37,207 nucleotides of DNA from an uncultured Lachnospiraceae bacterium. GTDB lineage: Bacteria; Bacillota; Clostridia; Lachnospirales; Lachnospiraceae. Position numbers and translations under genes: made by a program. The stretch is taken from NCBI GenBank assembly GCA_947628955.1, contig CANRBX010000024.1, forward strand, positions 1 through 37,207, in the 5' to 3' direction. Below, piece by piece: positions 608-5,679 of the stretch; the first letter of the stretch is position 1; each line of letters begins with the position of its first letter. The notes beneath the pieces were generated by a model. The model saw only the letters and a list, made by a program, of their open reading frames with translations, was not told the origin of the DNA and made no database searches.

Positions 608-1870
608 TTATTTTGACAGGCACAAATAAATATTCTCATTGTCAAAAAGAATTACTGTTGGCTGATTATAAAGTCGGTCAATTATCCTGATATTTTCGAT
701 AAACGGATGCGTGCAGCAATCTTTACTGCTTATCAAACGTTTTATTGTTTGCCCGGCTTTTTTAGAATTATGCTGTTCCAGAGTATTTCCGGCATCGACC
801 AGGAACTCATCAATTGGTGATTTGTTAATGACTGGTATTTTTGCAATAATATTTCCTGCATTTTCGCTGAAATTTGCCAGGCCATTTCGCAGATGTGACT
901 GTACAGAAGAATTTGCATTATTCTCCAGTTTGTTATAACACTCCGTATAGAGTTCTCGATATTCAAAAGAATATTGTTTCATTTTCCGGACAATGCTGCC
1001 AAGATATCCATTATCATAATTGCCAAGCAGCATCACTTCCAGAAAAGATGAAAAACCATGTAAATATACTGAAAGCTGGTATTCCCTGAAATCGGGGATT
1101 AATTTTCTTATCTTGTTTTTTATATCCTGATCTCTGAGGATAATATTAGAGTCCTGAACAATCTTTTGTATCCGAGCACGATAGAATTTTATATCCTCTT
1201 CGGACTTTTGTTTAATATCCTGTACTTTTAAGTGCATATTGGATTTATACATACTATTATTCCAATTATATTTATAATTGTTGAGAATATCTGCAAGGAA
1301 AGTTAAGTTTCCTCTTTGTTCAGCCTTCTTGCCTGATTGAAGAAAATCCAGTATTTCCTTCTGCGTTTCCTGAATATCTCCAAGTTGTTTTTCAATGCCC
1401 GTCAATGCTGCCGCTATAAATAGTGTTGCCGGATTAAAGGGCATCACGGTGCTTGCTGTAAGTGAATCTCCATTTACAGCCACCCATCTCGCCTGTGCGA
1501 GGTCACCATTATCTTTTAAAATAGTTCCTAATTTTCCAATTCCATCTTTGGAATCCAGTAATTTTCCAGAGACCCCATTCTTGAAAACAGCCCGATATAA
1601 TGTCTCTCCGCGGTTTGTCTCCATGGTCTGAGTGACTGTGCGAAAAGCAGGTGATAACGAAGACAATCCGGCACCTAATGCAGCAATTCCGTTAAAAGGA
1701 ATACGCATATATTCCGTCATATTTTCCCTGTCATCTGGATCAAGCGGATAGTATTCCACATTAATTAAAGATTTATCCTTATCATCTTTTGTCAATTGTG
1801 TACCATCCTGATCTGAATCGGCTTTTTCAGTTTCATATCTTTTTATAGCATTTTCTCTCATTTCCATCAC
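608..1870 (-). CDS. Unrecognised 420-residue protein
   Basis: I do not recognise the family. The start is a GTG (1870) immediately followed by ATG, with GGAGGG eight bases upstream. The N-terminal 50 residues are charged and acidic. A middle segment, MPFNPATLFIAAALTGIEKQ (about residues 142-161), is hydrophobic enough to insert in or contact a membrane. It is followed by a long predicted helical or coiled-coil region (about 160-330) rich in K, E, N and Q. The gene is markedly AT-rich against its GC-rich surroundings and uses A/T-ending codons, which suggests horizontal origin. It lies directly upstream of the YgiT-type gene. A toxin or defence role is possible from context only. Confidence 0.65.
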   Translation of the reverse strand: MMEMRENAIKRYETEKADSDQDGTQLTKDDKDKSLINVEYYPLDPDDRENMTEYMRIPFNGIAALGAGLSSLSPAFRTVTQTMETNRGETLYRAVFKNGVSGKLLDSKDGIGKLGTILKDNGDLAQARWVAVNGDSLTASTVMPFNPATLFIAAALTGIEKQLGDIQETQKEILDFLQSGKKAEQRGNLTFLADILNNYKYNWNNSMYKSNMHLKVQDIKQKSEEDIKFYRARIQKIVQDSNIILRDQDIKNKIRKLIPDFREYQLSVYLHGFSSFLEVMLLGNYDNGYLGSIVRKMKQYSFEYRELYTECYNKLENNANSSVQSHLRNGLANFSENAGNIIAKIPVINKSPIDEFLVDAGNTLEQHNSKKAGQTIKRLISSKDCCTHPFIENIRIIDRLYNQPTVILFDNENIYLCLSK

Positions 1871-2045
1871 TGCTGCTACCCTCCGGTATATTAACCACTA
1901 AATCCTGAAATACCTGTATATTTCCCGATAATTCTGCCATCGATATCAGTTTCCTGATACAATTGTAATTCCTGTCGGTATCTGCGTCAATTAGTATAAT
2001 TGCAGATTTGTAATTATTAACCGGGAACGCTCCTGATTTTCTCAC
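1833..2045 (-). CDS. Small ORF, possibly the 3' remnant of a truncated gene
   Basis: A 70-codon frame overlaps the start of the 420-residue gene by 38 bases and contains that gene's GGAGGG ribosome site, as in a translationally coupled pair. It has no recognisable ribosome site of its own, and an in-frame TAA lies two codons upstream of the ATG. Its 5' side runs straight into the leader of the substrate-binding protein gene. It contains a short hydrophobic stretch followed by DADTDRNYN. It may be what remains of a longer gene cut when this block arrived. No family recognised. Confidence 0.3.
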   Translation of the reverse strand: MRKSGAFPVNNYKSAIILIDADTDRNYNCIRKLISMAELSGNIQVFQDLVVNIPEGSSSDGNERKCYKKI

Positions 2046-2081
2046 ATATATTACAGCAGCTGAGAAAAAAGGAGAGACAAA

Positions 2082-2654
2082 ATGTTAAAGAAAATTCTTT
2101 CATTTACACTTGCGGCAGTTCTGGGTTTCGGCGCGTTTCCCTGCGCAGCTCTGGCAGAGGAGCGAACGGAGGTTACACTGAATGAAGTGGCGCACTCGAT
2201 TTTTTATGCGCCACAGTACGCGGCGATCGAGCTGGGTTATTTTGAAGAGGAAGGGATTGACCTGACGCTTGTCACGGGCTTTGGCGCGGATAAGACCATG
2301 ACTGCGCTGCTCTCGGGCGAGGCGGATATCGGATTCATGGGCTCGGAGGCTTCTATTTACACATACAGCGGCGGCGCCTCCGACGTGCCGGTCAATTTCG
2401 CGCAGCTTACACAGCGCGCGGGCAATTTCCTGGTGGCACGCGAAGAGATGCCGGACTTCACATGGACTGATCTGAAGGGGAAGGACGTTCTGGGCGGACG
2501 AAGGGGCGGCATGCCGGAGATGGTCTTTGAGTACATTCTGAAGGCGAACGGCATTGATCCGCAGACAGACCTGAATATTGACCAGTCGATAGACTTTGGC
2601 TCGACTGCGGCCGCATTCTCCGGCGGCCAGGGAGAGTTTACGGTAGAGTTATAA
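2082..2654 (+). pseudogene. NMT1/SsuA-type ABC transporter substrate-binding protein, 5' part (interrupted)
   Basis: This is the N-terminal 187 residues of a periplasmic-type binding protein of the NMT1/THI5/SsuA fold, the class that feeds ABC importers of pyrimidine, sulfonate and similar small molecules. A signal peptide ends at about ALA-EE (residue 25). The family hallmarks follow: FYAPQYAAIELGYFEEEGID, then the GEADIGFMGSEA region and the LKGKDVLGGRRGG region. GGAGAG precedes the ATG. Native coding stops at 2643; four element-derived codons (GTA GAG TTA TAA) then end the frame. The rest of the protein is at 5224-5679. As it stands, only lobe 1 and part of lobe 2 can be made, so it should not function. 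Neither its permease nor its ATPase is in the window. Confidence 0.88.
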
Positions 2655-2670
2655 TAGATACTACACCCAT
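2622..2670. other. attL of the serine-recombinase element
   Basis: Host half-site GAGTTTACG lies left of the GT core at 2643-2644; element half-site AGAGTTATA lies to its right. The native gene frame ends here and the recombinase stop codon is at 2670. Half-sites were assigned by comparing with attR. Confidence 0.75.
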
Positions 2671-4019
2671 CAGACAAAAGAAAAACCGCTGATCTTGTGC
2701 GTATCTTTATCGACATGGATTTCTTTCACAATTCTCTTCCAGAAAGCATTCTTGTGTTCTGTGTCCAGCATCTTATATAATTCACGCCAATTCCCGGAAA
2801 CCTCTTCCTGCAGCTTCTTATATTTTTCCAGATCATAGATCTGAGCATCCCCGGATTCTGCCTGCAGCGCTTTTTCCAGTTCAATATATTGGCTGTCATA
2901 GTATTCTGCTGTAATACGGCCTTTTTGGAAGAGAATGTTCAGACGATCCATTTCCGCGCGGATGGCGGGGACTTTACTGACTTTTGCACCAGATCTGTTC
3001 CGGATGTCAGCAGCCACATTCGTAATGGCGGGGCATATATGCTCCAGCATATACTCTTCGACAACTCCCTCAGTGATACAGGGAGACCGATGTGGGTCAA
3101 ATTTTCTGGCACATCTGTACCGCTTGTAAAATGTGACAGTTCCGTCCTTGCAGCTGTTCTTTTTTCGAAATCCGGTGAGTATTCCGCCGCAGACCGGACA
3201 GACGATCAGCCCGGAAAAGATATATGCTTCACTCGTATGCGGATAGCTCCTGGTATCGGAGGTATTTTTGATCATGTCAAACTGTTCCTTTGTGATATAG
3301 GCCGGATAGAAATCGGGCATATTGCGGTAGACCCCTGTGTACAGCTCTGCTGACAGCACTCGGTTTATCTGGTACACAGTAGGTTTCCTGCAATGAGTGC
3401 CGTATCTGTTCATGATGTGCGCAATGGTCTTACGTTTGGAGAAACAGGAGAAGTAGAAGTCGAATATCTCGTTCACGATACATTCCGTCTCAGGATCCTT
3501 CTGCAGTTTCTTATCAACAGAAATATATCCGTATGGAGCCGCACCGGTAATATGCTCACCGTTTCGGACTTTATGCTCAAGGACAACCTTGATCCGTTCG
3601 CCTGTCCGGTCACACTCATTCTGTGCGACGGCCAGCATGATATTGACCACCATCTGGCCGTTGGCTGTGGAAGTGTCATAATCCTCGAAGATGGTTTTCC
3701 AATAACAATGATGTTTTTCAAGGATCTCCTGCGTGGCCTGATATTCCTTGATGTTGCGGAACCAGCGGTCGAGTTTTGTCACGAGGATGATATCAATCCT
3801 GTCTTCCTCCACATCATGCAGCAGGCGCAGCAGGGCCGGACGTTTGCTGACCGGCTTTCGGGCAGAGACACCCTCATCTGCGTAGGTGCCGACGATTTCA
3901 TAGCCCATCCGGTCAGCGTACTCGGTCAGGTCCCTGATCTGTGCAGGCAGAGACAGGCCGTTTATAAATTGTTCCTCAGTGGATACGCGCGGATACAGCG
4001 CACAGCGTAGATGTTTCAT
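2670..4019 (-). CDS. Large serine recombinase (site-specific integrase)
   Basis: A 449-residue protein. ATG 4019 is chosen because GGAGGGG sits eight bases upstream; the frame is open to 4109 without another good site. Residues 4-150 form the resolvase catalytic domain with YPRVSTEEQ, serine 13 being the nucleophile that attacks DNA, and TKLDRWFRN supplying catalytic arginines. The recombinase domain follows (about 155-265). A zinc ribbon has CPVC at 274-277 and cysteines near 303 and 314. A helical, coiled-coil-like segment runs from about 340 to 440. This is the full architecture of TnpX/phage-type large serine integrases and no domain is missing, so it should be active. It presumably joins attP to an attB within the substrate-binding protein gene; excision would normally need a directionality factor. 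Confidence 0.95.
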   Translation of the reverse strand: MKHLRCALYPRVSTEEQFINGLSLPAQIRDLTEYADRMGYEIVGTYADEGVSARKPVSKRPALLRLLHDVEEDRIDIILVTKLDRWFRNIKEYQATQEILEKHHCYWKTIFEDYDTSTANGQMVVNIMLAVAQNECDRTGERIKVVLEHKVRNGEHITGAAPYGYISVDKKLQKDPETECIVNEIFDFYFSCFSKRKTIAHIMNRYGTHCRKPTVYQINRVLSAELYTGVYRNMPDFYPAYITKEQFDMIKNTSDTRSYPHTSEAYIFSGLIVCPVCGGILTGFRKKNSCKDGTVTFYKRYRCARKFDPHRSPCITEGVVEEYMLEHICPAITNVAADIRNRSGAKVSKVPAIRAEMDRLNILFQKGRITAEYYDSQYIELEKALQAESGDAQIYDLEKYKKLQEEVSGNWRELYKMLDTEHKNAFWKRIVKEIHVDKDTHKISGFSFV

Positions 4020-4075
4020 GTAATCCCCTCCGGGCTGTTCGAGTAAGCATATAATAACCTGGTTAAAGTAAAAGA

Positions 4076-4101
4076 CACCCATACAAATATATGTATGAGT
4101 G
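4076..4101 (-). terminator. Hairpin between the DUF4160 pair and the recombinase
   Basis: On the minus strand, CACTCATACA (4101-4092) pairs with TGTATGGGTG (4085-4076) around a six-base loop, with one mismatch, and is followed by TCTTTTAC. It could end transcription of the DUF4160 pair or act as an attenuator in the recombinase leader. The rest of 4110-4287 is AT-rich and I see no gene in it. Confidence 0.45.
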
Positions 4102-4287
4102 CCTTTCAACTATAATTAATATGGTTCTCTCGATGCAGGTATATTACTATATGGGAAAAAGTATTACAATATTTATAGCAGTTTTTTACATGTTTAACTG
4201 CAAATTATCAATATAAAAATAAAAAGCACTATTTTCGTCTGAACCATATAAATTATGCTATTTATCAAACTTACTATCCGTCTGATT

Positions 4288-4566
4288 TTAACAAAAGTAT
4301 TGAATCTCTCCAAAATAGTCGAGCCATTTCCGAATTATTTCTGTACTTCTGGCTTCCAGCATCCGCATTATATTCTTTAATGTTTTCTCTGGTATTTTTG
4401 AGTTGTTATGGCATAAATAGCACTTTCCGTTTTTGGTGATCCAGATTTTTGTGGAGTTCGCTGTGGGGCTCCCTTCTGACACATGAACATGTATAGGTTC
4501 CAGTGGTTTATTTTCATTAGTCCAGAAATATACCCAGTAAGAGCCGAGCCTAAAGATTTGAGGCAC
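4288..4566 (-). CDS. DUF4160 family protein
   Basis: A 92-residue protein with the DUF4160 signature: an N-terminal aromatic SYWVYFWTNE segment, then PIHVHVSEGSP, with paired histidines in HVHV. GTG 4566 is preferred to the TTG at 4572 because GGAGG is eight bases from the GTG and only about two from the TTG. It overlaps the preceding gene, so the two are translationally coupled. DUF4160 genes are common on small mobile elements beside a second short gene, and such pairs are often proposed as toxin-antitoxin-like modules. The biochemical function is not established. Confidence 0.75.
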   Translation of the reverse strand: MPQIFRLGSYWVYFWTNENKPLEPIHVHVSEGSPTANSTKIWITKNGKCYLCHNNSKIPEKTLKNIMRMLEARSTEIIRKWLDYFGEIQYFC

Positions 4567-4822
4567 TGTCAAATCCTCCTTCCTGCGAAAATTCCATGAT
4601 TAAGTGAGCGGAGGATTCAATAATCTCCTGAAACTTTGCGATATCCTCCGGTGAATATGCATAAATATCTTCCCATTTATACGAAGGGAGCCAACAAGTG
4701 GCATGCTTAAAGCAAACTTTTTCATCGGGTGTTTCAATATATACTTTCACCCTTCCATCTGGTTTCATCTCTGAGTGCACGATTTCTGTGTTATCATTAA
4801 GTGTCATATACGGATACATCAT
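4550..4822 (-). CDS. Small partner protein of DUF4160 (DUF2442-like position)
   Basis: A 90-residue protein starting at ATG 4822 (or ATG 4819) after GGAGG. It begins MMYPYMTLNDNTEIVHSEM and has an acidic C-terminal helix. Its 3' end overlaps the DUF4160 gene by 17 bases. A strong sigma-A-type promoter lies 71 bases upstream. The place beside DUF4160 is the one usually filled by a DUF2442-type partner, but I cannot confirm the family by eye. It is probably one half of a maintenance or toxin-antitoxin-like cargo pair of the element. Confidence 0.65.
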   Translation of the reverse strand: MMYPYMTLNDNTEIVHSEMKPDGRVKVYIETPDEKVCFKHATCWLPSYKWEDIYAYSPEDIAKFQEIIESSAHLIMEFSQEGGFDSASNL

Positions 4823-4892
4823 GATTCAATTCCTCCTTACCTCATATCACTCTGAAGAACAACAGCCTTTCCGGGCACATGTATTTCATTAA

Positions 4893-4921
4893 ATTTTATC
4901 AGACCGAGAAAAGATTTTCAA
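4893..4921 (-). promoter_or_regulatory. Promoter of the DUF4160 gene pair
   Basis: On the minus strand TTGAAA (4921-4916) and TAAAAT (4898-4893) are separated by exactly 17 bases, close to the vegetative consensus. It drives the two small genes that start at 4822 and shows that the cargo has its own expression signal. Confidence 0.65.
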
Positions 4922-5021
4922 CAAAGAATCCAGGAAAGAGGAAGGGCTTGATCAGGATGGCGGCAGGAAACCAGGCAAGGTGTACAACCAGACAGGAATA
5001 CCATGAAAGAGGGGTGGTGAT

Positions 5022-5159
5022 ATGGAATTAGAAAAAAAGATCATTGCAATTATCATAAACCTTCTGGAACATCAGGAGGATGTGAAGATCGAGTATAGGC
5101 TCGAAAAGAACAGGACCCCGGAAGCCTGGGCCCGCCGGCCAGATCCGCCGGTCGGATGA
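5022..5159 (+). CDS. Small 45-residue basic protein next to attR
   Basis: ATG 5022 follows the purine-rich GAAAGAGGGGTGGTG. The product starts MELEKKIIAIIINLLEHQED, continues with KIEYRLEKN and ends in a basic, proline-rich tail. It is the only plus-strand gene of the element and ends 64 bases from the crossover at attR. No family recognised. Its size, charge and position would suit a recombination directionality factor, but that is inference; it could also be a decayed fragment. Confidence 0.35.
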   Translation: MELEKKIIAIIINLLEHQEDVKIEYRLEKNRTPEAWARRPDPPVG

Positions 5160-5198
5160 ACCTTGAAAAGCAGATATTGTACAAAAATCCTTGCTTTA

Positions 5199-5250
5199 TA
5201 GATGCAGGAATGCATATAACACTGTTGAATTTGAGCCGGGGGCGACGACT
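5199..5250. other. attR of the serine-recombinase element
   Basis: Element half-site TATAACACT precedes the GT core at 5224-5225; host half-site TGAATTTGA follows. Joined to the element half of attL this gives TATAACACTGTAGAGTTATA, a dyad centred on GT with one mismatched pair. This is the expected form of a serine-integrase attP. Confidence 0.75.
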
Positions 5251-5679
5251 CTGGAGCAGGAGGGCGTGGGGTATGTTGTTGCCTCGCTCGGTACGGATTC
5301 CGGTTATGTGCCGTACACGGCCTACTGTGCAAAGACTGGATATATGGAGGAGCACCCGGAGGTGATCCAGGCGTTTACGAACGCGCTTCAGAAGGGGATG
5401 GACTACGTCAGTACACACACGCCGGAAGAGATCGCGGAGACGATCGCTCCGCAGTTTGCGGAGACAGACCTGGAGACGATCACGGCGATCGTGAAAAGAT
5501 ATTATGAGCAGGATACCTGGAAGGAGGATCTGATTTTCGGGCAGGAGAGCTTCGAACTGCTGCTGGATATCCTGGAGAGTGCAGGGGAACTCGAATCGCG
5601 TGTGCCGTATGAGGATCTGGTGACGACGACATTTGCCGCGGAGGCCGCACACAGTGCTTCAGAGGCCGCAGAACAATAA
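5224..5679 (+). pseudogene. NMT1/SsuA-type substrate-binding protein, 3' part (interrupted)
   Basis: This is the C-terminal 151 residues of the gene begun at 2082. It resumes as VEFEPGATTLEQEGVGYVVA, includes the second-lobe segment YTAYCAKTGYMEEHPEVIQAF typical of SsuA/NMT1 proteins, and ends with a polar Ala/Glu-rich tail. G5224 is in the same codon phase as G2643, so fusion at GT gives ...GEFTVEFEPG... without a shift. A start codon inside the element at 5191 could allow a truncated product, but without a signal peptide it would be useless for transport. No downstream permease gene follows; the next gene is a vitamin B6-type kinase. Confidence 0.88.

Follow-up and report, generated by a model that had tools for sequence, protein, structure and literature searches.

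The stretch of DNA analysed here (37,207 nucleotides, hereafter the window) represents the whole contig C24 of a 3.5-Mb draft genome (G000; completeness 94%, contamination 6%) of an uncultured Lachnospiraceae bacterium, and harbors a gene for an NMT1/SsuA-like solute-binding protein split by an insert of 2,581 bp. The 5' half of the gene (2082..2644, forward strand) contains 187 complete codons plus two bases of codon 188; the 3' half (5226..5679, forward strand) runs from the third base of this codon through the stop. Both halves match PF09084 NMT1 (2e-14 and 6e-4, the second just under the curated cut-off). A first-pass annotation, made from the letters alone, had placed the halves of an NMT1-type gene on either side of a 2.58-kb serine-recombinase element, and the coordinates and family matches bear this out.

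The dinucleotide GT is read directly at 2643-2644 and again at 5224-5225, in both cases occupying positions 1 and 2 of codon 188. When the flanks were joined by a script, 338 codons without a stop resulted, with GEFTVEFEPG across the join, exactly as the annotation had stated. Like skin, the insert lies inside a coding region at a short common core, and its removal gives an intact open reading frame (ORF). The equal codon phase at both cores follows from conservative recombination, since a serine integrase cuts and rejoins the same two bases; the match is thus automatic, says nothing beyond chance and is no evidence of regulation. The proposed search for strains with an intact gene was also rewarding: among 60 relatives searched (53 with a match at 1e-3), the gene is whole in 24 same-genus genomes, and in the intact orthologs listed T-(V/I)-E-F-E-P spans the join, insert-free.

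The element encodes its own site-specific recombinase, another trait of skin-type elements. This is an intact large serine integrase of 449 aa with the RVST serine motif (2670..4019, reverse strand), matching PF00239 (7e-32), Zn_ribbon_recom and Recombinase as well as phrog_95 (4e-96); the resolvase N-domain, the Recombinase domain and the zinc ribbon identify it as phage-type. The left junction (2643..2668, forward strand) consists of the GT core, 16 nt and the arm CTACACCC (2661-2668), common to relatives; the right junction (5200..5225, forward strand) consists of the arm AGATGCAG (5200-5207), 16 nt and the GT core. The ends of a related element in genome G065 read GGGTGTAG-N16-GT and GT-N16-CTACACCC; therefore, GT appears to be the exact centre of the phage attachment site (attP). 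All nine loci read with an element at codon 188 (site 188) and two viral contigs carry the GT core, and the same position in the intact genes listed is GT or AT, which would fit a need for the two core bases to match. An unjoined attP of the same layout is found on a phage-like 12-kb contig of G061 (C25), a genome whose host gene is whole; the contig also has an integrase 69% identical to that of the window and, beyond attP, genes that look lysin- and holin-like by eye. A scan of viral contigs with the attP pattern was set aside: eight of its nine matches, all eight also fitting the local pattern, proved to be a single unrelated sequence in several copies, and the remaining one is locus L330.

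Recurrent insertion into one gene

The window is not the only place where this gene is split. On contig C123 of the same assembly, a related integrase (91% identity) occupies the same position in a further, diverged version of the gene, whose protein is 89% identical; this contig may represent contamination by a sister species. Integrases 44-59% identical to that of the window occupy the same codon in other genera, in either orientation. Besides codon 188, the gene is split near codons 67, 90, 144 and 247, i.e., at five sites, the genome support being thin for site 67 (two genomes), site 90 (one) and site 247 (two).

At a threshold of 1e-17, the gene is present in 215 of 397 family genomes. 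From these, 35 weak-scoring carriers were picked, together with G338 from another sample; 32 proved to be split and three were dropped (G644, seemingly in four pieces, has runs of unknown bases, and G410 and G509 hold full-length low-identity copies). With G000, the gene is split in at least 33 of the 215 gene-bearing genomes, the remainder not being viewed singly; for four of the 33 (G575, G408, G730 and G749), one junction side only was available. Several elements can share one gene, e.g., in G652 (sites 67, 144 and 188), G665 (90 and 188), G650 (188 and 247) and, outside the sample, in the isolate Clostridium sp. Marseille-P3244 (G062; 144 and 188). In the genus set (47 genomes, 43 with a match), at least nine yielded a split gene as their only copy: G000, G074, G016, G028, G011, G012, G031, G009 and G070, with only one junction side found in G028, G009 and G070. 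Judging by agreeing coordinates, G074 was taken as the same as G060, and G379 as G065. Fragments of the 5' part ending at the codon-144 junction were also seen in G007, G030, G020 and G071 (L110, L111, L109 and L241); G007, G030 and G071 hold an intact copy as well, and G020 has two fragments about 4 kb apart.

Comparison of 24 integrase sequences revealed that those at sites 188, 90 and 67 are related (32-45% identity between sites), and those at sites 144 and 247 constitute a second and a third group, respectively. As the groups are 16-22% identical to one another, elements arrived at this gene on at least three separate occasions; in one of the groups, the targeted codon appears to have shifted within the gene.

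The contents of the elements are diverse. The G065 element (39.5 kb) resembles an integrative and conjugative element (ICE), with a MobL relaxase, a coupling protein of a type IV secretion system (TraG/VirD4), ParA/ParB-type proteins and SSB (scan pooled over 23 element ORFs). Phage-type genes include a CI-like repressor (G016) and an additional integrase (G060); a lysozyme and an r1t-type holin were detected in a scan pooled over 32 ORFs from 12 loci and belong, by eye, to G652. The site-144 element of G012 (18.8 kb) was assigned VapE-like, zeta-toxin and transporter genes (pooled, 13 ORFs). Mini-elements of about 1.9-4.9 kb were found in G665, G650, G623, G338, G601, G645, G656, G485, G582 and G652; those of G650 and G623 encode stand-alone Spo0A C-terminal domain proteins (5e-28 at L175:1514-2026 and 5e-7 at L179:5150-5563, respectively). 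A scan of IMG/VR viral contigs with the window integrase alone returned no relative. With an 11-sequence integrase alignment 289 relatives were obtained, and two of the best 80, which were kept (L251 and L246), end in the C-half of the gene, at codon 187.

In the window element, a palindrome noticed by eye upstream of the integrase, CATACAAATATATGTATG (4080..4097), is partly retained in the C123 element (L009) and represents a possible operator. The cargo on the reverse strand includes a DUF4160 protein (4288..4572; family match 1.7e-16), presumably akin to toxin-antitoxin proteins, and its 90-aa partner without a family match (4550..4822). This gene pair recurs in the site-188 element of G652 (L178:2334-2868) with 63-65% identity, that of the 90-aa protein being 65%. 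The C123 element has at L009:2880-3176 what resembles, by eye, a small holin-like toxin module. Site-144 integrase ORFs continue across the right junction into the target gene (L097, L186, L102 and L237); integration at this site would change the integrase C-terminus. In G656 (L185:1605-4040), an 811-aa open frame joins the integrase and the C-half in frame, and the C-halves of G563, G739 and G031 lie within open frames of 829, 873 and 625 aa, respectively.

A sigma-K-type promoter and a probable sporulation link

The split gene is preceded by a sigma-K-type promoter (2027..2053, forward strand) composed of AC at 2027-2028, a 16-nt spacer and CATATATTA at 2045-2053. The motif was first noticed in the window and in C123 and tested afterwards. 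In its strict form (AC-N16/17-CATANNNTA within 110 nt of the chosen start), it is present in 55 of 101 orthologs vs. 0.43 expected from shuffles; in the relaxed form, it is present in 73 of the 101, with 1.06 expected. Among 330 other ORFs of the same loci used as a control, two strict and six relaxed matches were found; the strict ones are the window gene itself and the G060 integrase, leaving one in 329 others. When the search was anchored on the -10 element alone, AC occurred at spacer 16 in 40 and at spacer 17 in 12 of 65 sequences. Since orthologs are not independent, sequences at least 75% alike over 75 nt were removed; 57 with CATANNNTA remained, and AC lies at spacer 16 in 37 of them and at spacer 17 in 12. 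In these 37, the flanks of the -35 element, which the search did not impose, are G/T (94%), C (73%) and A/C (86%), i.e., KCACM, so the overall form is KCACM-N16-CATANNNTA. The ATA of a sigma-E -35 element does not occur at spacers 13-18. The B. subtilis sigma-K consensus is tabulated in PMC3416734 as KCACM/GCATANNNTA; the agreement of the orthologs with it marks the promoter as sigma-K-type.

The distribution of the gene points in the same direction. The SigE/SigK model TIGR02846 at 1e-60, a threshold not separating SigE from SigK (the curated cut-off is passed by 57 of 397 genomes), matches 210 of the 215 genomes with the gene and 49 of the 182 without it (Fisher p 3e-56, relatedness ignored). 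The genome of the window itself has two such matches, the best at 9e-85. In a control, the sigma-K model did detect B. subtilis but with a score under the cut-off, which would follow from the interruption of its sigK by skin. Because of the conserved promoter and the near-confinement to SigE/SigK genomes, the gene looks like a late mother-cell one: it is probably a mother-cell sporulation gene and not a vegetative importer. No literature linking an NMT1 gene to sporulation in Lachnospiraceae was found among the papers judged by title or abstract start.

The neighborhoods of the gene were viewed by eye, no scan being made, and revealed no evident shared permease/ATPase pair beside it. In G065, genes of a molybdate-type ATP-binding cassette transporter were noticed by eye some 2.3 kb downstream of it. 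On the 5' side of the split gene, the window (608-2045) contains a 420-aa gene without a family match and an MqsA-like gene; C123 and G060 show azlD-like genes there instead (by eye), which may reflect a further insertion or rearrangement.

For excision, serine integrases depend on a small partner protein. For C. difficile skin, PMC5025042 describes a small acidic 72-aa directionality factor made only in the mother cell, and a putative 53-aa factor is given for yin in PMC10747680. In the window element, a 45-aa ORF with an isoelectric point (pI) of 5.7 (5022..5159, forward strand) is a candidate recombination directionality factor. It lacks Pfam and PHROG matches but has homologs in seven other loci of this integrase group (L113, L125, L099, L182, L175, L179 and L184; tblastn 4e-12 to 0.003), and the pI is below 6 in seven of the eight family members. 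All eight ORFs are preceded by ACAAYC and, 7 or 12 nt further on, CATA (CATG in the window), a box that is reminiscent of SpoIIID sites but lies close to the start codon. In five site-144 loci, the integrase is immediately preceded by a different small ORF, these ORFs being 20-47% alike.

Proposed harboring and excision, and the alternatives

On balance, we consider it rather probable that skin-like elements harbor in a sigma-K gene and would be excised in the mother cell. Under this reading, the split gene would be a late sigma-K-type mother-cell gene for an exported NMT1/SsuA-like solute-binding protein, and the 2.58-kb insert would be a stripped-down member of a phage-like integrase family targeting codon 188. 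Integration at the GT core would be conservative, and exact removal by the element's own serine integrase is possible in principle. As with skin, SPbeta, gin and yin, the interrupted gene would be required solely in the terminal mother cell, where precise excision would give back the protein, and the forespore genome would keep the element, which would thereby be inherited. We propose that unrelated elements converged on this gene because it is needed only in the terminal mother cell. An extension to the whole family is more tentative, its chances being a little short of even: at least three unrelated integrase groups, which phages, ICE-like and mini-elements carry, would have converged on five codons, some genomes would have to lose two or three elements, each by its own recombinase, for the sake of one mother-cell protein, and the Spo0A-domain proteins would read the sporulation decision of the host.

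Inside the gene pieces, neither stops nor frame breaks were seen in 32 of the 33 split family genomes (the first ~25 residues, unaligned in many pieces, were not judged), and the stops in aligned pieces fall at the junctions (residues 144, 184 and 186) or at the natural end (331). Outside the family sample, the site-188 and site-144 loci read are clean except for one of the two G020 fragments. G626 has a further break near residues 222-243. The omega value (ratio of nonsynonymous to synonymous divergence) of the gene to its nearest relatives is mostly below 0.1, reaching 0.23 in the most distant comparisons; for the window integrase vs. the C123 copy it is 0.076. The mini-elements retain a full-length integrase though little else. 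The intact pieces and low omega fit either recent insertion or repair by excision.

A number of observations weigh against the harboring of elements excised in the mother cell. Even the relaxed promoter motif is absent from 28 of 101 orthologs, although some of these misses may be wrong starts because the start codon was picked by a simple ribosome-site score. No common mother-cell signature was found upstream of the 22 integrases read, which show scattered single matches, that of the G060 integrase alone being strictly sigma-K-like. A profile of the eight 45-aa ORF sequences retrieved no further one in 43 loci; hence, this ORF is missing from several site-188 elements, including the mini-elements of G665 and G338, and the box before the window ORF reads CATG, not CATA. 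G605 has frame breaks in both gene and integrase. Synonymous divergence (dS) of the integrase is lower than that of the gene in three pairs (0.31 vs. 1.08 in G469/G725, 0.15 vs. 0.44 in G009/G070 and 0.17 vs. 1.08 in G063/G064), and these pairs lend no support to selected persistence of the split state. Finally, mother-cell expression, excision during sporulation and the role of the 45-aa ORF are what we infer, not what we observed.

In the third pair, neighboring genes diverge by 0.23-0.41, much nearer the integrase value than the gene value; between the window and C123, dS is 0.64 [0.51-0.80] for the integrase and 1.04 [0.74-1.81] for the gene. The elements in the tested pairs are thus younger than the divergence of the host gene, which implies recurrent mobile insertion, not an old fixed switch; the same three pairs speak against long residence of the split state. 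In G060/G028, identity is 84-98% over the element stretches and 93.5% over the C-half, which would agree with a shared old insertion without proving it. A rival reading is plain parasitism, whereby the gene is a non-essential conserved attachment site (attB) destroyed by insertion without developmental excision, and lineages with a split gene soon die out or can dispense with it. The lower divergence of the integrases agrees with that, and so do the decayed G605 and the N-half fragments beside intact copies in G007, G030 and G071. Still, we hold it to be unlikely, given that the gene is constrained and its pieces intact in all but one of the split family genomes, that mini-elements keep the integrase at full length, and that three unrelated integrase groups entered one gene with a sigma-K-type promoter.

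A more local possibility is that the window insert is an immobile dead prophage remnant and the gene is permanently broken in this lineage. Just 2.58 kb remains, the left attP arm is AGATGCAG instead of GGGTGTAG, and the genome is a draft with 6% contamination; but AGATGCAG is common to the G060 and G028 elements and hence a lineage variant, not decay, and with both gene halves and the constrained integrase intact, this explanation is improbable. The first-pass annotation had suggested a reversible off-switch for a nutrient importer, i.e., active lysogeny in vegetative cells with the element leaving and re-entering. The frame-exact split, the intact integrase with its att sites and the unjoined attP in a relative would suit such a switch. 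It is very improbable nonetheless, since the gene looks like a late mother-cell one by its promoter and its near-confinement to SigE/SigK genomes, and no shared transporter partners are evident by eye beside it. The likeness to sigK-type elements, which the annotation had also pointed out, fared better: it gained from the family-conserved promoter and the co-occurrence with SigE/SigK.

One gene struck at five codons by unrelated integrases across a large gut family makes a testable pattern, with strong statistics, of the notion that prophages shelter in mother-cell genes, and a conserved binding-protein gene is flagged as a probable late spore gene. The survey also yields several integrases with mapped att sites and small candidate directionality factors, and cautions against taking every split gene in gut genomes for a pseudogene.

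To our knowledge, the genes rebuilt during sporulation are few, with one element per gene, and come from bacilli and clostridia. For SPbeta in spsM, vfbin in spoVFB and vrin in spoVR, PMC4191935 describes prophages, or what is left of them, within mother-cell genes, each gene having a single element; in the present case, there are up to three per gene and five sites family-wide. The elements gin in gerE of B. cereus, which lacks phage genes, and yin in yabG of C. botulinum reside in sigma-K-stage genes according to PMC5595907 and PMC10747680; the gene is a different one, and their excision was demonstrated experimentally, whereas here it is a proposal. XisF of the fdxN element of Anabaena is the best NCBIfam match of the window integrase, but 128 bits is far under the curated cut-off of 375 (NF041201), so the integrase is not an XisF. 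The closest parallel is skin in sigK of B. subtilis and C. difficile, where a serine-recombinase element splits a mother-cell sporulation gene with a precise join. The differences are that a binding-protein gene with a sigma-K-type promoter is split here instead of sigK, that several sites and integrase groups are involved in one gene, and that excision is proposed. The window element resembles the skin element in every feature testable here.

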